Shown here: positions 1 to 63,034 of the stretch, piece by piece | Layout of the letters: every line of letters starts with the position of its first letter | Position numbering within the stretch: the stretch's first letter is position 1 | Assembly (NCBI GenBank): GCA_920105625.2 | Contig: OV050033.1 | Location: 56,794,280 to 56,858,279, forward strand | Direction of reading: 5' to 3' | Length of the DNA stretch: 64,000 bases | DNA from: Clusia tigrina | Taxonomy: Eukaryota; Arthropoda; Insecta; Diptera; Clusiidae | Notes under the pieces: model-generated | Database searches by the model: none | The model's input: the letters and a program-made list of their open reading frames with translations, nothing else | Told to the model about the DNA's origin: nothing | Made by a program: the position numbers and the translations under genes

Positions 1-1675
1 GCTATGCGCTCCCAGCTAGCTGAATTGAAAGCGTTTTTGACATCTAGGGTGACCACAAGGCAATACCTCTTGGTTCCACCCCTCCATCGTTTCCCCTGGA
101 TCGCTGTTTTAGGCGTCTAGACAAGTTCGTTGATGGCGGCCACGGTAGATCTCGCCTTCCGGAAACCATATTGCCGTTTTGAGAGCCCTCCAGATTTTGC
201 AATGGCCTTATCAATCCTGTCACAGATTATCCGCTCCAGAATTTTTCCCGCCGTATCTAACATGCAGAGCGGGCGGTACGCTGAAGGGTCCTCTGTTGGA
301 TTGTTGGCTTTCAGCACCAGGACCAATCGTTGCCTCTTCCATCTCTTGGGGAAAATGCCTTCTCTCAGGCAAGCGTCGTACATTTTCCTCAGTGGCTCTG
401 GGTTCAGTGCAGCTGCGGTCTTGAGCACTCGGTTGGGGATTCCATCTGGGCCGGGTGCTTTCTGGTCTCCAAACTTCCCAACCGCGCGCAACACCTCATC
501 TATAGTCACACTGGGTATTGATTCCTCCGTTTGCTCCAGAGGGAGCTCGTATGGGACATAGGAAAGAGCTGTGCCACTATGCGTCTGAGCAACATTGGAC
601 AGGTTGGGGCTGGCTGCCTATAACAGGGCAATTTTCGCATGACAAGTCTATATGCCATGCCCCATGGATCGTCCTCAACTTGTGCGCATAATTCAGCGAA
701 CCTGGTGCTCTTGCTCTTCTTAATTGCCTTCTTTAGAACATTTCTGGCTTCCTTGAAGGCCTGGTGCTTCTGCAGGGAATCCGGTTTCCGTATGGAAAGT
801 TGATACCTTCTCCTCGCAGCATGTCATGCTTTACGGAGCTCGCCTATTGCATCCGTCCACCAGTAGACAGGTTTATGCCTCCCACCATATGCTCTCCGGG
901 GCATTGCCGCGTCGCAGGCGTTTTCTACCTTCCTTGCCAGCTGATTCGCCATTTCTTCTGCACTGCCTTCCAGCACCAAACCTTCAAGCATCATTTCTAG
1001 GACGTCTTCGTCAAGGCTGTTTGTCCTCCAGCCTTTCAATGTCGGACCTATCCGCTGCCGATTCCGGGGCTTCTCCAGTTCGCAGATGATAGCTTGGTGG
1101 TAGCTGTGGGTGTATATGTCACTCACCAGCCATTTTGCACCCCTCACCAGCCTGCTACTTACGAAGGTTAGGTCTATCGCAGAACTGGCACCTCCTCTGG
1201 CAAAAGTCATCTCGCCGGTATTCAAGAGGATCACGTCAAGTGCTGCGAGTGCATCCATGAGGATATAACCCTTTGGCGTAGTTCGGCCGCAGCCCCATTC
1301 AGTTGTCCATGCGTTGAAATCGCCAGCAATTACTACAGGGTTCCTGCCGTGTGCATCTAGAACGAGTCTATCTACCGCCGACTCAAACTCATCTGTAGTT
1401 AGGCTTGGTGCCATGTAGCAACTGTAAACCGTGGTTCCTCTTATGGTTGCGCTGACGTAGTTTTCATCCCTCCTGACGTCCGCGAGTTGAGGTGGCTTGA
1501 CTCCACACACCCATATTGCAGCTCGGCAAGTATTGTCCTCGACCCAGACTCCTTGGTGCTTCCGACGATATGGTTCACTGAGCACAGCGGCGTCGATCTT
1601 GTGCTCTCTCACCGTCTGCTCAAGTAGGTCTTGTGCAGCTGCGCAGTGATTGAGGTTAAGCTGGAGTAACTTCAT
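1..1675 (-). pseudogene. R1-clade LINE ORF2, endonuclease plus reverse transcriptase, interrupted
   Basis: The start ATG at 1673-1675 overlaps the ORF1 stop. The first 283 codons encode an endonuclease/exonuclease/phosphatase-fold domain (LNLNHC near the start, SEPYR near residue 35, AGDFNAW near residue 115). An in-frame TGA at 824-826 then interrupts it, and the same frame stays readable beyond. A shift of frame lies between about 560 and 600. The reverse-transcriptase finger and palm motifs follow in the new frame to a TAG at 117-119. Another shift between about 60 and 117 brings in RT motif A (TLDVKNAFNSASW) at 1-59. At least two stops and two frameshifts mean no active protein. The rest of RT and the 3' UTR lie to the left of the window. 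Confidence 0.88.
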
Positions 1676-3273
1676 TCCATGCGTTTTGACTCCTTTACTG
1701 CTTGCTTATACGACGGGCATATTCTGCATCCTGTCGAGTGCTCCGTATCCTTGCGGCCTTTGGTCTTGCAGAGTGCACAGGTTGGGCTTTTGCTACACTC
1801 GCTGGCGTTGTGGCCTTCGGCGCCGCATCTGTAGCACCGATTCCGCCAGTCCTCCTTGCTACTGCACTTTTTGACAATATGCCCAAACTCCATGCACTTG
1901 TAGCAACGTGTGGGTACTACCTTTCCCCGCACCCGACAAGAGGTCCATCCGACTCTCAGTTTCCCTGCCAGTAGCGCTGCGGCTGCCAGAGGGGGCAAAC
2001 TGATGGTTGCTGTTTGCGTTCCACCGTACGCTTTCCGAAGGGACCTACTCGCGGACACGGGGAGCTTTTCGAAAGTGCTCAGCTGTTTGCACAGCGCTTC
2101 GTGAACTTCCTCTACCGTGGTGATCTCGTCAATATCCTTTATTTCCAGCAGAGTCTCCTGGGTGAGTTGTCGCACCTCCACACTAGTCCCCAGTGTATTT
2201 GCTACTGCTTCCCGCAGAGTGACCGTCTTCGGGTCCGCTGTCGTGGCTAATTCGAGTAGCAGCTCACCTTTCGCGGTTTTCCTTATTTTGTTCACTCTCT
2301 CGCCCAATTCCCCAAGCCCCGGCTCCGTCTTTATCCTCCGCAAGATCTCCGCATAGGTTGTCACTCCCGTTCCCTTGATGACAATTGCATCAGGTCTGGT
2401 CGGCTTCGCTTTAGCCAGTGTCTTCGGCTTTGCCCGGGGGCGAGCACGAACCATCGTCCACTCTGGCTTTTTCACCACTGCGTCGGGTTTACCCACTTCT
2501 GGCTTGGTGGTATTTTTAGCTGCGGCGGCCTTCGCCATGGCCGCCCTTGCCGCATCCGCCTTCTGCCTTTTGGGTACCGCTCGGCTCGTCGGGCTGGTTC
2601 CGTCGTCTTCTGCGTTTTCGCGGGGACGCTTCGGCATTGCAGCGGAAGCCGCGTAGCTCCTTGCCAGTGGCGATACGCTGGCTTGGACCTCCTTGTCCTC
2701 CTGCGCTTTGCAGGTTTGCATATTCTTGTCGGCTCGCTGCAGTAGTGGTGGTTGAACGGTGACGATGTCATCGGCATCCCGTTCTTGTGCCACTTCTAGG
2801 CACATGTCGCGGATCTTCGCCGCCTTTCGTTTAATGTCCGAATGGACATTATGTCGCTCCGCAATGTAGCTGATGAGTGCCTCGACATGCCACTCTAGCA
2901 CAGCCATTTTCCCCTTATCATTCACTTCCGGCGGCGGGTAGATTGCCATCTTCCCTAGCATGTCTGACTTACATGCCACCCGCATTTGCATCTCCCCCGG
3001 ATCACCCAGGGAGATTCTCCGCACCGTCAGTCGCTGGTCTTGCCCACCACTAGGTGGGGTCCGGCGCAGTATGGAGCTTCTATTAAAAGGATCCTGCTCC
3101 CTGCTTTTGTTTTTTGCTCCCTCGTTATTGTTGTTGTTGTTTTCTTTGTTATTTATTTTGTTCATGCGTATTGGGTCCCCGCTCAGAATCGTTATCGCTG
3201 CCCGTAGTACAGTCGCCTTCATGATCCCATGGTTGTATATGCCGGAGCAGGGAGGCCATGCAAGGGCTGACAC
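1672..3273 (-). CDS. R1-clade LINE ORF1, gag-like nucleic-acid-binding protein
   Basis: This is an intact 533-residue frame. The N-terminal part is low-complexity (an Asn run near residues 40-50), followed by charged, Ala/Lys-rich sequence. The C-terminus holds three cysteine knuckles: CYKCMEFGHIVKKC and CYRCGAEGHNASEC both fit CX2CX4HX4C, and a third, CALC...H...C, is looser. In this family ORF1 binds element RNA and forms the particle used for reverse transcription. The stop TGA (1672-1674) overlaps the ATG of ORF2 (1673-1675) as ATGA, the arrangement expected for termination-reinitiation coupling of the two frames. I used the most upstream ATG of the frame, so the true start could be further in. 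ORF1 is intact while ORF2 is broken. Confidence 0.88.
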   Translation of the reverse strand: MSALAWPPCSGIYNHGIMKATVLRAAITILSGDPIRMNKINNKENNNNNNEGAKNKSREQDPFNRSSILRRTPPSGGQDQRLTVRRISLGDPGEMQMRVACKSDMLGKMAIYPPPEVNDKGKMAVLEWHVEALISYIAERHNVHSDIKRKAAKIRDMCLEVAQERDADDIVTVQPPLLQRADKNMQTCKAQEDKEVQASVSPLARSYAASAAMPKRPRENAEDDGTSPTSRAVPKRQKADAARAAMAKAAAAKNTTKPEVGKPDAVVKKPEWTMVRARPRAKPKTLAKAKPTRPDAIVIKGTGVTTYAEILRRIKTEPGLGELGERVNKIRKTAKGELLLELATTADPKTVTLREAVANTLGTSVEVRQLTQETLLEIKDIDEITTVEEVHEALCKQLSTFEKLPVSASRSLRKAYGGTQTATISLPPLAAAALLAGKLRVGWTSCRVRGKVVPTRCYKCMEFGHIVKKCSSKEDWRNRCYRCGAEGHNASECSKSPTCALCKTKGRKDTEHSTGCRICPSYKQAVKESKRME

Positions 3274-3777
3274 AAGTCCTCATGGGAGCTTGCATACAGA
3301 GCCAGATCAGCGTTAGTCGGGAATGTTACATCCGAGCCTGTACCGCCAACTTAATGGGGTCGGACATCGAGCGTTCTCCGAGACCTGCCAAGGTTTTAAC
3401 GGGACGGAGGCAATTATGGCATTAAGCTGCCAGCCATTTCGATAAGATTTCACTCGTATGTACTAAAGTGACAGCATGCCACAATCGTCAGCCCATATCC
3501 ATAATTCCCAAAAAATGTCCGGTATCACAAACTTAAGGCCTTACCGGTCTCGACCTTAGTAGCGCTAAGCGCTTGTCGCACAGCTGCCCCAGGCATGTGG
3601 CAGCTGACCAAGGTGTTGGTGATCTGAATTCACTCTTGGATTTTTATGGTCCAACGATGATCCCACGAAGTCCCTCGGTGGTGAAACGATGCTCCGCGTC
3701 CGTCCCTCGATGGTCCATCGTTGTCCATCGGTGCCCCTTCAGCCACCCCTCCGGGGTCATCGCTGAAAGAGTCGTTG

Positions 3778-3886
3778 CTCACTTCGGCTAGCAACCAGCG
3801 GTTGCTGGTATACCATTGCCCGGGGCCGCCACGAGGAGGCAGTGAGTTTTCTTGGAAGAGTTCTCTGTAAGGATCGCCCTGGCCTC
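3778..3886 (-). ncRNA. Candidate HDV-like self-cleaving ribozyme at the 5' end of the R1-clade LINE
   Basis: Reading the minus strand, the segments fall in the order of the HDV double pseudoknot. P1 5' strand GAGGCC 3886-3881; a 34-nt J1/2; P2 5' CTCACT 3846-3841; P3 GCC 3840-3838; L3 TCCTCGT 3837-3831; P3 GGC 3830-3828; P1 3' GGCCCC 3827-3822; then GGGCAAT, whose GG can make P1.1 with CC of L3. P4 is AGCAACC-GCT-GGTTGCT, 3806-3790. J4/2 contains GCCGA, fitting the C-N-R-A rule with its catalytic cytosine. P2 closes with AGTGAG 3783-3778. All helices are Watson-Crick except one A/C mismatch in P1. Such ribozymes release the 5' end of R2 and several other LINE transcripts. Activity is not shown, and the P1 mismatch may have killed this copy. 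Confidence 0.6.
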
Positions 3887-3936
3887 TCGCTGGTGAGTGG
3901 CTATCAGAGTATTTACCTTAAGATTATCAACCCTGA

Positions 3937-4860
3937 CCCATCTGTTCTGGTCTATGTTTTGGAATCTGTTTCGGACTCTGTTTTGAACTCTGTTTTGGTC
4001 TCTGCTTAGGACTCTATTTTCCTTACTATTTTGCACTCTATTTTTTACTTTGTTTTGGTATCTTGTAAACTACATATGTTTTTTACTCTTTTTTGACGTT
4101 GTTTTAAACTCTGTTTTGGTCTCTGTTTTGGAATCTCTTTTGGACTCTGTTTTGAACTCTGTTTTGAACTCTGTTTTGATCTCTGTTTAGGACTCTATTT
4201 TGCGTATTCTTTTGGACTCTATTTTGGACTTTGTTTTGGTATCTTTTAATCTCTGTTTCGGTATGTGTTTAGGACTCTATTTTACATACTGTTTTGGACT
4301 CTATTTTGGACTTTGTTTTGGCATCCTTTAAATTCAGTTTTTTACTCTTTTTTGACGTTTCTGTCTGTTTTGGTCTCTGTTTTGGAATTTTTTTTGGACT
4401 CTCTTTTGCATATCTCTTTTGCACAATGTTTTGGAATCTGTTTTGGACTCTGTTTTGGTCTCTGTTTTGGAATCTCTTTTGGACTCTGTTTTGAACTCTG
4501 TTTTGGTCTCTGTTTAGGACTCTATTTTGCTCAATGTTTTGGACTCTATTTTTTACTTTGTTTTAGTATCTTTTAAACTCTGTTTCGGTCTCTGTTTAAG
4601 ACTCTATTTTGTATACTTTTTGGACTCTATTTTGGACTTTGTTTCGGTATCTTTTAAACTCTGTTTTTTACTCTTTTTTGACGTTGTTTTAAACTCTGTT
4701 TTGGTCTCTCTTTTGGAATCTGTTTCGGACTCTGTTTTGAACTCTCTTTTGGTCTCTGTTTAGGACTCTTATTTGCAAACTGTTTTGGTGGTCTATTTTG
4801 GACTTTGTTTTGGTATCTTTTAAACTCTGTTTTGGATTCGTTTTTGACTTTGTTTTGATG
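3937..4860. repeat. Minisatellite of a 12-bp unit (consensus near GGACTCTGTTTT)
   Basis: About 75 degenerate copies of a 12-bp unit run through this stretch. Variants are GGTCTCTGTTTT, GGAATCTGTTTT and GAACTCTGTTTT. There is a loose higher-order pattern: the motif TTTTTTGACGTT recurs at about 4095, 4354 and 4680. Because 12 is divisible by three, the array gives long open frames with a repeating Phe/Trp/Leu or Cys/Phe/Gly pattern. These are by-products of the period, not genes. The R1-clade element ends about 50 bp away. Confidence 0.9.
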
Positions 4861-30463: not shown

Positions 30464-31970
30464 TTATTTCTTAGACTTGATTTTCTTAAGATAGAATTCC
30501 AATTCTTTGCCCTCCAAAATATAACCATCAGCGCGTCCGCATTGTCCAGGGCGGGATGAGATGCAAGCTGTAAATTTAATAAATATTATTAGAAAAGTCA
30601 AAAGAATTCAAAAAAAGAATAGTAAATATATTAAGGAAAAATCAGAGTAACTATGACAAGCAATATCATATCCAACAGGCTTGTGCCGCACTTAAAACAA
30701 GATTGGCACAATAATTTGTTGGTCGCTTTGAAATGAATTTATCGTCATCTTAGAAAGAATTTGTATCTCAATAATAATTCACCGCATTTAGACTCACCAA
30801 GAATACGACCAGAAACGAATTGATCCTCCACAGCTTGTTCAACCTTGGCGTGCTTTTGACGCTCCAAGTACTTCTTCATGACTTTATCACTGCGTTTTCT
30901 GGTTAAAACATCGTCTTCATCTTCTTTCTGTTGATGTTTGGGATTACGTTTGCGTCCCAAAGGTAGCACATAGTGGGATTCGTACCACTGACGGAATGGT
31001 GTAGCGTCAATGACAACAATGCTGTTCTTTACCAAAGTCTTGGTACGCACCAATTCATTGTTGGAGGCATTGTAGACTACGTCAGCTACACGAGTCTTGC
31101 GTGCAACACCCTCGGAGGCCCAGGAGAAATTTCCAGTATCCAAACGAAGGGCACGGTGTTTAGTGTTTCCACCGCGTGTGCGGACTTTGTGAACGCGAGA
31201 GGCGCCAAGCTACAAGACAGAAAGTTTTGTATTTATTATTTATAGACTAATTTCAATCTCACATTCATTATTATATCAAATATACCAATTCAGTAGTCCG
31301 AACATAAATTACGCTTATTCTTCAAAATGATTTTTAACCACACAAGGAGGCAAAATTTCAGTTGACACGCGTTATCATCAGAGGTACATACGCTGTGCTA
31401 CTGCCGGAGCAAATCACTCGAGTATGATGAACCAGAGGCGATAGTCTGCAATAATTTATTCAAGCAACCCGACATCAAGGGACGCCTAAGCTTCTCCAGA
31501 CACCACACTCAAGTGATTCCAACTCGATCAGATAACTATAAATTTGACTTACCTTGGTATTTGCAGCAGGACGTCCTAACTCGAACTTCCTCTTCTTGCG
31601 GAGAGGCTTGCGTTTGCCACCAGTGGAGCGGCGCTTATGAGAGCTATCGCGGCTAATACCTGTTAATCAAATTTTATCAACATCAGTACTGAGCACACCA
31701 AATAACAGATATTTTCAAGAAAATCTAAATTTTAACACAATAAGAGCCAGAGCCAGATGCCGCTTCATTGACAAAATCACTTTGTAATTGGTTGTTAAAA
31801 TTAGCAGCATTGACAAATCTTCCCGCTGAAATAACCTCCTGGATTTATTCATTGAGATAATTCTAGCTTTTTACGCACGATTTTATTAATGTAGTGTGTT
31901 TTTCCATTACGATGTTTTAAGATTTTCTTGAAAAATACTTGGCTTTTATGAAAAACCCGCACTCACCCAT
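30464..31970 (-). CDS. RpS8: Ribosomal protein S8 (eS8), complete, four coding exons
   Basis: Coding exons on the minus strand are 31970-31967, 31659-31553, 31209-30798 and 30567-30464. All have GT/AG junctions and keep frame: 4+107+412+104 = 627 nt, 208 aa plus TAA. The length equals that of Drosophila RpS8. The protein starts [19 protein letters not shown], very basic as expected. It is a component of the small ribosomal subunit in the cytoplasm. The first exon carries only ATGG, so the start codon sits right at the first splice donor. A pyrimidine-rich leader precedes it. Exon 3 contains [18 protein letters not shown], and the C-terminus is [11 protein letters not shown]. The three introns are 307, 343 and 230 bp, and two contain RNA-like structures. 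Confidence 0.98.
30672..30722 (-). ncRNA. 51-nt hairpin in RpS8 intron 3 (possible H/ACA hairpin)
   Basis: Two perfect helices are separated by an internal loop: CCAACA/TGTTGG (6 bp), then a 5 by 3 nt bulge, then TTGTGCC/GGCACAA (7 bp), with a 17-nt apical loop. On the transcript strand it is followed at once by ATATGA, which fits the H-box rule ANANNA. The distance between pocket and box is shorter than usual for a guide, and no ACA hairpin follows clearly. Confidence 0.35.
31281..31387 (-). ncRNA. Candidate C/D-box snoRNA in RpS8 intron 2
   Basis: On the minus strand: C box TGATGA (31380-31375), D' box CTGA (31361-31358), a C'-like TGAAGA, and D box CTGA (31293-31290). The two ends can pair through TACC / GGTA (31386-31383 with 31285-31282). 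The 13-nt gap between C and D' is a suitable guide length. Ribosomal-protein introns commonly host snoRNAs. I could not match a guide to rRNA from memory, so the target is unknown. Confidence 0.5.
31412..31518 (-). ncRNA. Structured segment with 12-bp closing stem in RpS8 intron 2
   Basis: AATCACTTGAGT (31518-31507) pairs with ACTCGAGTGATT (31423-31412), eleven Watson-Crick pairs and one G-U. Inside, TTAGGCG and CGCCT can pair again. It lies immediately 5' (in transcript direction) of the candidate C/D snoRNA. It may be a second small RNA or a structure that brings the snoRNA out of the intron. No class is assigned. Confidence 0.4.
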
Positions 31971-39500: not shown

Positions 39501-42500
39501 AGGAAAACAAAATAATTAAATCAGCGACACTGAACAACAAAGTAGCATTTTTTCAGTTTCCAAAAAAAATTCAACAATTTAATTACTTTAAAACTTTATT
39601 TATTTAGTTAAATTATGATTATTAATATTAAAGTTATTATATTTTAATTGCTGCTGTATTCATTCTATAACGATTCCATGAAGAGCAATATCGACTTTCT
39701 CACATTAATAGAATGAATTTCTCTCATTTGTAACCAATTAGATCCCTGATTGGTCTTTCTCAACCGTGAACAGAATAGAGCATTAATATCCCACACATTT
39801 TAACAGCGCTCTCCTATCTTGGTATATGTAACATTTCTGTTACAGAATGAATCAGTACATTTCTCAACTTGAAGTCGGTACGTTACAGCAATGCTGCTCA
39901 CTTCAGAATTTAACGATACTTCTTCTTTTAGCTCAATGCGAGTCTTTATGTTATTGCCATAGCGTAATTCAGATTAGAAGAGAGTGAAATTAAAGACAAT
40001 AATAACAGAAAATAAATTATTTGCAGAAAAACAACTTCGCTCTGAGCTTAGACCTCTGTTAGTAACATTATGGCCACTGATGCACGAGAGAGAAATAAAA
40101 AAGTACTCTCAAATTTAAAAAATGTTTAAAAAACACCAATTAAAATTATTATTTTCACAAAATTTTTTGCTGTAATAGTTTGAAAACAATGAAAAAGTAC
40201 TAGTACCAAAATAACGGTTCTTTTTATGCGTCATACAAAAAGGAACCCTAAATGGTACGAAAGTACGTAGTTGTGCAACAGTGATTATGTTTTACTCTCA
40301 TAGTGTATTCAATTACTCCACCAAGTGAAGCAAATAGAGAGGGAGCTGAATTGAAGAATAACAGCAAAGCATTTTTAACACCCTTTAATTTTTGAACACA
40401 TTTGATGATACCACAGTTTACAGATGCGCTGTGTCTCCCAGTAAATTTTTATAATATCCTTTTTAAAAATATTCCTCTGAAATTATTATTCACAATTTCG
40501 ATGAATCGTTATATGGATGGGGGTCGCTGGTTCAAGGTCCACTCAGTGAATGATTTCGATGTGCTTGTTTCTAAATTTTCCCTTCTAAGGCCTTAGTTAA
40601 TTGTAGTACTCACACCACCAGACCATTGAAGACATAATTCATTATTAATATATTATTAATATACATATTGAATATAGTCTACTATTCAAAACCTTTCCTT
40701 TTCTGCAGGTCTCTGTACACTATATCGAAACAATTGGATGATGAGAAAAAGAAAGTATCCAGTATATCAGATCTTTTTCAACATGAATTGGAGCAGAAGC
40801 GTGCTCAGCTGGTACAGCTCTGCAAGCAAATTATATTCAAGGATTATCAAGTGATTGGTAAAAGGGCGCGTGAGATAATGTGGCGTAAGGGGTACTATGA
40901 GTTCATAGCGTACGTCAAGAAAAATTGGAACAAAGAACTCAAGGATCCATCTCAACCGGGCGTGTATGAGAATTTGAAGAAGCTGGAACGCTTTCTCTGC
41001 GCCGGCATCGCCAACTATAAACGGATGGCCGCTAAAATGGAGGAAATTTACGATTTGGATTTAAAGTATTTGATCGACTTCACCATTATCAGCGATAGCT
41101 ATGTACGCGAATTGGAAGACAAATTAGATGGCGATCGCTTAGATGCGGGTACCTATGCTGTGGACAAGAGCTTGGAAGCCGTGTCTTTTGCTTTGGATAC
41201 CATACACTCCTCGCTGTTGAGTTTGGGTGATTTGCATCGTTATTTTTTAGATTTTCGTATCGATACGAATTTGAATATTACCAGACAAGAAGCGGCGAAA
41301 TTTTACTTTGAAGCTTTTAAACTAAATCCAGCGATTGGCATGACCCAAAATCAGCTGGGCACACTGCACTACGGCCAAAATTACGATTTGGATTCCATCT
41401 ATTATTATTTGTACTCACTCGTCAGCCTGGTGCCATTTGATCTCAGCGAGAATAACGTATGCAAATTGTTCGTAACGCACGCTGAATATTTGGAGCAGTT
41501 GAATCCAGACAAAATTGAATTCAGTCTACGGGATTTCTACTCGCGCTTCTACCTCATTGTAGACATACTATTCTTTGACAAAGAGGTACCCGACTTTAAT
41601 TCTCTGTGTCATTGCGTTTTGGTGGATCTGCGCAAAGTGCTCTGCTCTAAAGTGTTCAACGTCAGCGAATCATGCATTTTCAAGATCGTCTCGATTCTGT
41701 TCTTATGTCTGTCCAAATTGAAAATGATCAACTCGCAGAAGGTGTACTCGCTTAACGCATTTTTGGTAGCAGTATGCTCTGATTTGATGGACACTTGCAT
41801 TGTAAATCTAGAGCAGACTATACTGTCCAAATCGATGGAGAATGAGAAATTCCAAGCCATATATACGGAGAAATTCGAAGAATTCGACACAACAGTACGC
41901 AAGTCACGAAATGAGTATAAGAATTGGGTGGCCACCGTTGATGAAGCTGACAAGAAAGAGAAAAAGCTTCTTGCCAAATCGGTTAAAGATTTCTCATCCG
42001 ACTCTAGAGAAAGCCAGCGTTCGCATAACGAGTACATAATTAAATCAGTGGATAGCAACAAGCATGTCCGGGAAGGTGGCGATAATAATATTGATCCCAT
42101 TTCAACGCGTTCAAGTGATGAGGCCAAGGAGAGCGATCTTAAGACCCCACTGTCATGCAAAAGCAAAAAACGTGGCATGAAGTTGCGTCGCCGCAGACGG
42201 AAGATTGCTCAGTCTGATGACAGTTCTTGTTATGATACGGAAAGTGAAATGGATTCGGACTTCTCCACAGAGGATGAGGACTACACCGATTTGAGTTCGA
42301 ACTTCGACACTGACTTTAGTGATATAGAAGCGGAACCAATAGTTAATGGGCACGAGGAGCAGCAGGAAGGTGGTAAGTTGTAGCAAGAAATAAACTAAAC
42401 TGAAAGTTTATTTAATCTTTTACTTTTTCAGATCAATTCACAAAGAAAGTAAAAACAACGGAAAGTGATAAAAAACAGCCCCATATCAATAATCGAAAAC

Positions 42501-44714
42501 TTTCAGCAACCACTTCCAAGGACAGCCTTGCTTCCAATGAGGATGCTATTGGTCATAACTTTTCCGACAACGATGATATCGTTATCGAAGAAGAGAAAAT
42601 CATTTATCCTGATGGTCAGGAGAAGCATACTCAACGTTCAAATTCGCAAGAAGTCGATTCGGAGGAATTGTTGCGCAGTTTCGAGGTTTTGCAAATGAAC
42701 AGCAATAATGCATTGAATTTCAAGAACGTTGACGCCGATGACTTGCACGCCCACACACCTCGTGGTGTCAAACTTGGAGAGAATGCAAATACGGCACCGG
42801 GAGAGCCACCTAGCAAACTTGTCTACCGCAACAAGTATCTGAAAATCAATCCCAACATCATTGTTGAGTTTGCTAAGAATGAACCTACCATGCGCGCTTT
42901 GAAAATACTCTTCGATTGGCTGCGCATCAATCACGAAATTCTTATCGGGTGCTATCACTCCAATCCAGAGTTTGTGCATAAAATCATGAAATTGCTGAAC
43001 TACTGCAATATTGACATATTCACTCGTAAAGTGTACTTCGAGCGTGAGTTCCTGACCACGGACAATGTGCGTCAGACCCTGGACGACCTCTTCGACGTGC
43101 GCACAAATGTGCCGCTTTCCGAAGACTTTCTGTTCAAGAGTTTCGATCTATTCCAAAGCACACAAATCACTCTCGATTGGGAGACAACTATACGCGAGCG
43201 TGTCACTGCATCGGAGGAGTGTATACTGCGCATCTTCAAAATGGTTGATTTCGGTTTCTTTATATGTAAGCAGAAAAAGTTCAATTATCGTTTCTGTGTG
43301 AAGGCGCGTCGCTTTACTGAAACTGCCAAGAAAAAGCGAGAAGAAAAGAAATCTTCGTCACGTCGTCGCGAACGTCGCACTGCCAAGAACGCGGCTCGCA
43401 AGCGTGCAGAAGGTCGTACACGTCGATATTCGGATCGCAAGAATGGCGTTGTCCGGAAGAGTTACACCAGCAACGAGGAAAAGGACACGGTTGAAGAATG
43501 CAAGAAGTTGCCGCGCAAGGGTTATCTACGCAATCGTAACACTGAGAAGGCAGCCACGGGTACATCTGGAGCTAGTGGCGCTTCTGTCTCCACCACGACC
43601 ACGAACAGTGGTATTTGCGAGAAGTTGCTGTCCAGCAGTGGTGCCGATGAGGAGCGCTCCGAGGCCATGTCGAAGAAATGCGAAATTATGGGGAAACTAT
43701 GGCTGCAAAATGAAGTCGAAACTTTGGAGGAGGAAGTGAGTTATTTTGTTTTTAGTAACTAATAAGGGAATCTCTAAAGACCTTTTTATTTATCATTGCA
43801 GCTACGTAAAAATCCAGTGAATATAATTATGACCCCGTTCATTGTGGTTGACGCAAAGGCTTTAACTGAATACAATAGCATTGTAAAGAATTTAATCAAA
43901 AGCAAGAAGTTCATTGTCCTCATTCCAAATGCTGGTAGGTTTTTAATTTGGAATTATCTTTAGCTTCAATTGCATAAAATTCCCTCCCTCTCTTTCATAT
44001 TTTCCTATAGTGTTCAGTGAATTGGACGATTTAAAGAAGCGTAGTGATAATCGTAATATTATACGTAATGTAATTCGTTGGCTGGAGCAGGAATTCAAGC
44101 ATGGAAATCGTCATTTACGGGCCCAGAGGGATAACGAGAATTTGCCACTATCACTGCTGAAGATACCGCGAAAATTGGGTGAGTGTTTGTTTGGATGTAT
44201 AATTCACATTTTTATATGGTGCAAGGAGCCATTTAAGTTAAACTCCATTGTCTTGACAATAAGAACGCTTCCTAACTAGAAATCAATAGTTCAAACTATG
44301 TCTGTATTGCGGTCCAACTCAAATATAGTTGCCCATGATTTCTGTTGAAAATAATATTGTTTATGTACCCAAATTTCCGTTGAACTTAATTGTTACTACA
44401 CCATTAAAGCCCCCACTTTTACTTAACTTTCATGTATTTAATGTATTTTTAATTTTTTTTTCCCCCTTCCAGATCGCGATGCTACCGTCTTTCTACAAAT
44501 AGCCCAATTTTGTAATCATTTAGTTACCAATCACTCGGATCCCAACTCGACGGAGTTCCAAACAAATGTTGTTACTTATTTGTCGGGCGATTCGTTGTAC
44601 GAGAGGCAACGTCATTACACCAATTTCAGTTTCACTGGCATTTTGGACTCAATACCAGTGCGTTATGAACAAATTGCTAATTTCTACGCAAAATTCAAGG
44701 CTAACAAAAAATGA
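36576..44714 (+). CDS. Smg5: Smg5, nonsense-mediated mRNA decay factor, six coding exons, complete
   Basis: Coding exons are 36576-36742, 40709-42372, 42432-43735, 43802-43934, 44011-44178 and 44473-44714. All have GT/AG borders and one frame, 3678 nt, 1225 aa, close to Drosophila Smg5 (about 1180). Residues about 50-330 are the EST1/14-3-3-like helical domain (GKRAREIMWRKGYYEFI, then IGMTQNQLGTLHYGQNYDL). An acidic, Ser-rich middle and a Lys/Arg-rich segment follow. Residues about 1046-1225 form a PIN domain (FIVVDAKAL, FIVLIPNAVFSELDDLKK, WLEQEFKHGNRHLRAQ). The first PIN aspartate (D1062) is kept, but the acidic set needed for cutting in Smg6 is not evident, as known for Smg5. It acts in the cytoplasm with Smg7/Smg6 on phosphorylated Upf1. 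The Smg5 rather than Smg6 call rests on the GNRHLRAQ region and the degenerate PIN. Confidence 0.96.
36743..40708. other. Smg5 coding intron 1, about 4 kb
   Basis: The donor GTAAGTTTG and acceptor TTTTCTGCAG are strong. There are no exons inside that I can support. It contains a 14-bp palindrome CGTGATTAATCACG (38001), a 20-bp inverted repeat pair with TTTACACGG words (38365-38856), and a 67-bp direct duplication (38537 and 38604). Confidence 0.7.
38365..38856. mobile_element. Candidate MITE in Smg5 intron 1, 492 bp
   Basis: CTAATTCTGTTTTTACACGG (38365-38384) is found again, perfectly inverted, at 38837-38856. Just inside the left end the word TTTACACGG or close variants recurs four or five times. 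No target-site duplication is clear, so the superfamily is unknown. A chance 20-bp perfect inverted pair at this distance is very unlikely. Confidence 0.55.
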
Positions 44715-55644: not shown

Positions 55645-60383
<4,739 letters not shown>

Positions 60384-61990: not shown

Positions 61991-63034
61991 CGAGGGGTAC
62001 TATTTATATTTCGGGAACTGGTAACACCATAATAAAGTTTTACATTTTTTAGCATAAACGTACTCACAACGTGTTGATGTGCAAGTGCTATTTGTTTTGT
62101 TTACAGTGAGTTAAGAACATCAATTTGGCCAAAAAATGGAAATGTCAAGAGAAGGTTTTCGTTGGATTATTTTTCACAACTTTCGACGAGGATTATCTCA
62201 ACAAGAATGTGTCGATGAACTCAGTTCTTTGTATGGCGATAAAGCACCGTCAGAAACCAACAGTATATAGCTGGTATAGTGAAAACAATCGTGGTCGTAG
62301 TTCGGTCGCCGACGAACTCCGTGAAGATCGTCCAAAATCGGTTGTTGTGCCACGATTAAAAAGTTCGACCGTGGTGCTTCAAAAGACATGTATAAAATCG
62401 TGACGAATCATGGATATATGCGTATGAGCCGGAAATAAAACAACAATCGACCGTGTGGGTATGCCAAGACGAGCTAAATCCAACAATAGTTGTTCGTGGA
62501 AGAAGCACAGCGAAGCAACTTGTCGCCTGTTTCTTCGGCCGAATGGGTGTGGCCACTATTCCGCTTGAGCAACGTAGGACGGTCAATTGTGAATGGTACA
62601 CGACCATTTGTTTGCCGGATGTCTTCGGAAAAATTCGTAAAACCAACCGGCAAAAACGAATCATTCTCCATCATGCCAATGCGAGCTCTCACTCAACAAG
62701 TGAATTTTTGAGCAGCCAAAACATCGAATTGATGACTCATCCTCCGTACAGTCCTTATTTGGCACCCAATGACTTCTTCTTGTTCCCGAATATCAAAGGT
62801 AAACTGCGTGGTCAACGATTTACGAGCGCCGAAGACGCAGTTGAAGCGTTCAGTTCAAAAACCATGTTTTGAAAGTGTTTCAAGAGGAATGGAAGAACTG
62901 CCATGACAAATGGTTTGAACGAATGCAAAATTGTATTGATCATCAAGGGGAATATTTGAAAAACAATAAAGTAATTTTCATTTAAAAATTTTTGTTATTA
63001 TTTGCTATTCCCGAAATATAAATAGTTCCCCTCG
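61991..63034 (+). mobile_element. mariner element (DD34D type), 1044 bp, dead
   Basis: Inverted ends: CGAGGGGTACTATTTATATT then TCGGGAA on the left, CGAGGGGAACTATTTATATT then TCGGGAA on the right (reverse complement). TA duplications lie at 61989-61990 and 63035-63036. Full mariners are about 1.3 kb, so roughly 250 bp are missing. Ends are well kept (one difference in 27 bp), so it could still be moved by a transposase supplied elsewhere. It lies in the sense opposite to CenG1A. Confidence 0.92.
62142..62969 (+). pseudogene. mariner transposase, broken
   Basis: The N-terminus is the helix-turn-helix (FRWIIFHNFRRGLSQQECVD) from the ATG at 62142. A frameshift near 62255 leads to WYSENNRGRSSVADELREDR. 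About 80 residues are then missing before DESWIYAYEPE (first catalytic Asp). The second catalytic position reads HHANASSH, Ala instead of Asp. The third is NDFFLFP with Asp kept. Spacing from the second to the third site is 31 residues instead of 34, owing to a 9-bp loss. Another frameshift near 62870 separates the C-terminal WKNCHDKWFERMQNCID. The protein cannot be active. Confidence 0.9.

Follow-up and report, generated by a model that had tools for sequence, protein, structure and literature searches.

Ribozymes of the HDV type are built as a double pseudoknot in which P2, P3, L3, P3', P1', J1/4, P4, J4/2 and P2' follow one another in that order. Such ribozymes have been described for the R2, R4/Dong, L1 (L1Tc) and RTE groups of LINEs (PMC3774820), while a second source, drawing on Ruminski 2011 and Weinberg 2019, cites them for R2, R4, R6, RTEs, SART, Baggins and L1Tc (PMC11620745), which agrees with the statement in a preliminary description of the locus analysed here that they occur on R2 and several other LINE clades. 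Cleavage is described at the 5' end of the element in R4, Dong, Baggins, L1Tc and Drosophila R2 (PMC3774820). In the R2 ribozymes P1 typically consists of 6-7 bp and, in about one-quarter of R2s, is mismatched at the top, the two P1 strands are separated by 23 to over 700 nt, J1/4 comprises 0-2 nt and the catalytic C is rigidly conserved; in one R2 species a mismatch in P1 may account for the missing cleavage (PMC3774820). The most conserved R2 sequence, CCUCCUCGUGG, is located at nt 135-145 in R2Dm and at nt 37-47 in the R2 of zebra finch (PMC5035012).

Here we analyse a 64-kb stretch of DNA from the fly Clusia tigrina (the window), in which a minus-strand segment close to the start of the stretch resembles these systems. 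The locus shares with the R2 ribozymes the order of the helices, an identical CCUCCUCGUGG, a J1/2 of the variable and often large kind, and a probable position near the 5' end of the element (PMC3774820, PMC5035012). It differs from R2 in its host, which is an R1-group element with an APE-type endonuclease and two ORFs, and in its flank, which is a minisatellite and not 28S rDNA. R6, SART and Baggins, likewise autonomous LINEs, have HDV-like ribozymes in their 5' UTRs (PMC11620745), a likeness drawn from their description.

Results

The core of the putative ribozyme

Between 3846 and 3778, read on the minus strand, the locus comprises CUCACU-GCC-UCCUCGU-GGC-GGCCCC-GGGCAA, the P4 hairpin, GCCGA and AGUGAG. 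The letters required for a nested P1-P2-P3-P1.1-P4 double pseudoknot are present in the fixed HDV order, as judged from the letters themselves. P2 is formed by CUCACU (3841-3846) and AGUGAG (3778-3783), which make six Watson-Crick pairs. A descriptor scan assigns the two P3 strands, GCC (3838-3840) and GGC (3828-3830), the putative active-site loop L3 (UCCUCGU, 3831-3837), whose CC would be able to form P1.1, and J4/2 (GCCGA, 3784-3788), in which the predicted catalytic C, by analogy with R2 (PMC3774820), is C3787 or C3786. The P1' strand, GGCCCC (3822-3827), is followed by J1/4 (GGGCAA, 3816-3821), which includes the GG of P1.1 and falls inside the Rfam HDV alignments described below, and by the P4 hairpin (3789-3815), where a check of the pairing revealed 11 pairs, one bulged base and two G-U pairs. 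The preliminary description had listed P2, P3, L3, GGGCAA, P4 and J4/2 in HDV order on this strand, and the letters bear this out; its view that the helices are perfect holds for P2 but not for P4. The conserved letters of L3 (UCCUCGU) and the C of J4/2 (GCCGAA) are both present. P3 and L3 together contain CCUCCUCGUGG, identical letter for letter to the word found in R2 ribozymes, which would represent nt 101-111 of the element if its 5' end is at 3939.

Rarity of the motif and covariance-model searches

The descriptor that included P1 allowed one mismatch in this helix and a J1/2 of up to 60 nt, and was run at three stringencies for L3. It should be emphasized that it was designed with the motif already known, and that the chance figures given here therefore flatter the motif. 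On both strands of the 64 kb, and at all three L3 stringencies, the ribozyme site was the single match; it was again the sole match when P1 was omitted from the descriptor. When order-1 random sequence was scanned (40 Mb resembling the window and 20 Mb resembling the LINE), the version with P1 produced no matches with strict L3, 7 + 11 with medium L3 and 104 + 100 with loose L3, while the version without P1, scanned over 120 Mb, returned 0, 124 (38 + 86) and 857 (295 + 562), respectively. The loosest descriptor without P1 is thus expected 0.6-1.2 times per 64-kb window, and 0.004-0.007 times on one strand of a 5' UTR of 740 nt.

As a control, the core words were sought in viral contigs, where they occurred at 23 loci; P3 was present at 8 of these, P2 together with J4/2 at two and all of these at only one (L023), indicating that the core words alone do not bring the remaining elements with them. 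The complete locus, at 253-277 of the plus strand of its contig, displays CCTCCTCGTGG followed by GGGCAA, with P3, the P2 partners GAATTC/GAATTT and CTGA. It lacks an Rfam match at the gathering score, and both an HDV-like ribozyme and a chance arrangement are possible.

The preliminary description had pointed to the Rfam HDV-like families, and here the outcome was divided. At the gathering score, a search of the whole window returned no match at the ribozyme, its only match being a snoRNA elsewhere; at E<=10, however, a search of 3600-4000 listed just two of 4227 families, both of them HDV ribozymes, overlapping each other on the correct strand and in the correct place. These were RF02682 (HDV-F-prausnitzii; 15.1 bits against a gathering score of 44, E 2.4) and RF01787 (drz-Agam-1; 13.7 bits against 37, E 5.1), and when the interval was extended to 3200-4000 RF02682 alone was listed at E<=10. 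Both models align over the CCUCCUCGUGG stretch, score far below their gathering thresholds and leave P1 unmatched. To our knowledge the HDV models of Rfam represent narrow families, which do not include the R2 ribozymes with a long J1/2. The resemblance of the core words to an HDV-type core, which had been noted from the letters, is nevertheless well founded, given the identity of CCUCCUCGUGG with the R2 word and the fact that the only two Rfam candidates are HDV ribozymes. The snoRNA match is the C/D-box snoRNA snoR442 (30640-30685, minus strand), which lies beside an ORF matching ribosomal protein S8e (30745-31209, minus strand) and is perhaps an intronic snoRNA of RpS8.

Conventional folding did not single out the locus. 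Compared with shuffled sequences, neither 3886-3778 (z -0.53) nor 3939-3778 (z -1.25) is unusually stable. The nested minimum-energy fold retains P2 and P4, while GCC 3840-3838 pairs with GGC 3827-3825 of P1' instead of P3', and GGC 3820-3818 of J1/4 pairs with GCC 3788-3786 of J4/2. This competing fold would block formation of the ribozyme; as the folding program does not handle pseudoknots, it cannot tell which of the two structures would prevail.

The P1 helix and the start of the element

Starts from 4300 to 3851 were examined for partners of P1' (5-mers had to pair throughout, whereas 6- and 7-mers could contain a single mismatch), which gave six rows distributed over three sites. The first site appears in two registers, TGGGTC at 3940 (-7.3 kcal/mol, with its first base unpaired) and GGGTC at 3939 (-6.5 kcal/mol, fully paired); the second comprises AGGGTT at 3934 (-6.0 kcal/mol), GGGTT at 3933 (-5.0 kcal/mol) and CAGGGTT at 3935 (-4.5 kcal/mol). 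The third is GAGGCC at 3886 (-5.6 kcal/mol), which by energy is fourth of the six rows and, by best row, last of the three sites. At least five contiguous pairs with P1' are available at only two of the 449 starts, 3939 and 3933.

GGGUC/GGCCC is therefore the strongest fully paired P1 (-6.5 kcal/mol), and its start coincides with the edge of a minisatellite array (3939/3940), a coincidence observed in one copy. The simulated chance of a pairing like that at 3939 is 0.7% for a fixed start and 2.3% for any one of four starts, figures obtained after the coincidence had been seen. In the model that we prefer, GGGUC (3935-3939, minus strand) is the proposed 5' strand of P1 and GGCCC 3827-3823 its partner, with the putative cleavage site, and with it the 5' end of the element, just before G3939. 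The resulting helix has 5 bp, one of them U-G, and J1/4 gains one C; compared with R2, J1/4 lies within the described range and P1 is on the short side (PMC3774820). Between P1 and P2 is a J1/2 of 88 nt (3847-3934), which is predicted to be a self-contained hairpin domain; its minimum free energy (-21.7, z -1.28) is not significant, as 24 of 200 shuffled sequences fold as well.

The preliminary description had proposed a different helix, GAGGCC/GGCCCC with an A.C mismatch at the second pair, and had placed the 5' end of transcript and element at 3886. This helix exists as letters (3881-3886, minus strand), but P1' has better partners at two other sites, and GAGGCC is probably part of J1/2. The end at 3886 is probably wrong, in view of the fact that the best fully paired P1 and the stop of the minisatellite both fall at 3939, and it is on these two grounds that the 5' end of the LINE is probably 3939 rather than 3886.

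The downstream LINE

The putative ribozyme heads a 5' UTR of 717 nt, which is followed by ORF1 and ORF2, all on the minus strand. Domain and homology searches identified ORF1 in an open frame (1672-3279), with its first in-frame ATG at 3222 and CCHC zinc knuckles. ORF2 begins with an APE-type endonuclease (824-1705, from homology and profile searches), whose ATG at 1675 overlaps the ORF1 stop and which has an in-frame stop at the end of the domain. The start of the reverse transcriptase (117-617) is in a shifted frame and interrupted by a stop, matches Pfam RVT_1 at 25.0 bits, below the cut-off of 29.6, and its homology continues to the edge of the window. Judged by the in-frame stops and frame change in ORF2, this copy is dead.

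The relatives of ORF1 number 18, and the six that carry species names are all from flies (Eurosta, Anastrepha, Rhagoletis, Glossina, Lucilia and Drosophila), so that among the protein data it is ORF1 that points to a fly host; the 29 relatives of the endonuclease are broader, extending from flies to Halyomorpha, Neodiprion and Temnothorax. A profile built from 20 endonuclease sequences (the query and 19 of its 29 relatives) gave seven hits, including TRAS1 (1.4e-19) and R1Bm (2.7e-12), against 0.0016 for 2v0s ('LR1'), an L1-type protein. On protein homology, that is an APE-type endonuclease nearest to R1-clade proteins and a CCHC-containing ORF1, the element is an R1-group LINE. Since none of the seven profile hits is a LOA-clade entry, the comparison does not separate the R1 clade proper from LOA, a clade that carries RNase H, and protein names did not distinguish the two either, as no clade is given among the best 120 of 323.

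The endonuclease was also sought more widely. In viral contigs one search yielded 119 pattern matches and no relative, and another gave no match; in bacterial and archaeal genomes there were 456 pattern matches and one relative (L024, in a bacterium), with 30% identity over about one-third of the query. Within the 64-kb window no second copy of the endonuclease was found. Elsewhere the window contains two adjoining ORFs at 40638-43762 (plus strand), of which the first has EST1 and EST1 DNA/RNA-binding domains, and is presumably SMG5/6/7-like, and the second weakly matches the latter domain; a 520-residue ORF at 58630-60192 (minus strand) with PH domain matches; and an ORF at 62396-62872 (plus strand) that weakly matches the DDE_3 transposase domain, at a score short of the Pfam cut-off.

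The adjacent minisatellite

Directly upstream of the LINE, Tandem Repeats Finder identified a 12-bp minisatellite (TCTGTTTTGGAC) with 77.8 copies at 3941-4857. Across 3939 the match to the repeat unit drops from 9/12 to 6/12. With one copy of the element to hand, the minisatellite could be a target of insertion or could itself belong to the 5' region of the element. The stretch 3940-3887 includes CTTAAGG, a motif that we take to resemble the 28S R2 site; this likeness was dropped, the motif being too short and Rfam finding no rRNA in the window.

Discussion

The data presented here argue that the LINE described above very probably has an HDV-like ribozyme fold at its head, with cleavage as a prediction from that fold. 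The preliminary description had put such a fold before an R1-group LINE, and the rarity of the descriptor, the identity of the Rfam candidates and the LINE proteins all support this. We favour a more specific reading, which we regard as reasonably probable: the minus-strand segment 3939-3778 (162 nt) forms the 5' end of the element and is an HDV-like ribozyme that would cut before G3939. The element would be transcribed within a longer host RNA that enters through the adjacent minisatellite. The RNA would then fold with GGGUC/GGCCC as P1 at its extreme 5' end, followed by the 88-nt J1/2, P2, P3, L3, P1.1, P4 and J4/2, and a cut just before G3939 would give the LINE RNA an exact 5' end for translation and reverse transcription, the putative role of the ribozyme in retrotransposition. 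With a P1 of only 5 bp, the ribozyme of this particular copy may be weak.

It could be argued that the resemblance arose by chance in a GC-rich 5' UTR, and that the family has no ribozyme. The ordinary fold energy, the competing nested fold, the failure to reach an Rfam gathering score and the frequency with which the loosest descriptor without P1 occurs in a window of this size would all fit such an explanation. It does not, however, sit easily with the strict form, which was absent from 120 Mb of random sequence, with the correct strand and place of the motif at the head of a LINE, or with the very low expectation for even the loosest form within a 5' UTR, and we consider chance quite unlikely. 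If the ribozyme is genuine, P1 could still be GAGGCC/GGCCCC, with the cut before G3886, the element starting at that base and the 54 nt of 3940-3887 representing flanking DNA. Such a model uses all six nucleotides of P1', places GGGCAA directly after it and has a short J1/2 (34 nt), and in about one-quarter of R2 ribozymes the top of P1 is described as containing 1-2 mismatches (PMC3774820). Against this, the A.C at the second pair isolates the first, better partners exist at two other sites, and the 54 nt between array and element are left unexplained. Moreover, such a P1 is easily obtained: of random core hits, 28-53% also have a helix with one mismatch within 60 nt. This range is the quotient of the rates with and without P1, and the scan without P1 also accepted a P1' of 5 nt. 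We consider a start at 3886 unlikely.

Template switching might also have transferred the ribozyme from an R2-type element, which would make it foreign to the LINE family. In Drosophila, R2/R1 hybrid SIDEs likewise join an HDV-like ribozyme, that of R2, to R1 sequence downstream (PMC3414825), and the core word of the Clusia locus is the same as in R2 (PMC5035012). Active-site likeness is, however, reported to have been reached by convergence (PMC3774820), and a shared CCUCCUCGUGG is thus no proof of common descent. Whereas the SIDEs are non-autonomous and contain only the 3' end of R1 (PMC3414825), the ribozyme described here is followed by a 717-nt 5' UTR, ORF1 and ORF2, and rRNA was absent from the Rfam matches in the window. 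A chimeric origin is, in our view, very unlikely.

Returning to a native ribozyme predicted to cut before G3939, its position at the junction of array and element admits a further, decidedly improbable extension, in which a dipteran R1-group LINE targets the 12-bp minisatellite and depends on read-through of the array, with the HDV-like P1 at the junction and cleavage resetting the 5' end in each round. If true, this would be an R2-like life cycle conducted on a satellite in place of rDNA.

SART and R6 are R1-clade elements. HDV-like ribozymes have already been cited for both (PMC11620745), so the novelty for the R1 clade that the preliminary description implied is weak, and the Clusia LINE instead adds a member to a known group. 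Among the publications listed from part of the literature, none was recognised as a report of this fly LINE. The likely 5' end of the element is shifted by 53 nt, and a construct beginning near 3886 would miss the better P1. This study thus extends the carriers of HDV-like ribozymes by a probable R1-group LINE of a fly. Provided that the ribozyme is genuine, it also illustrates that scores far below the Rfam thresholds are possible for a ribozyme of this type.
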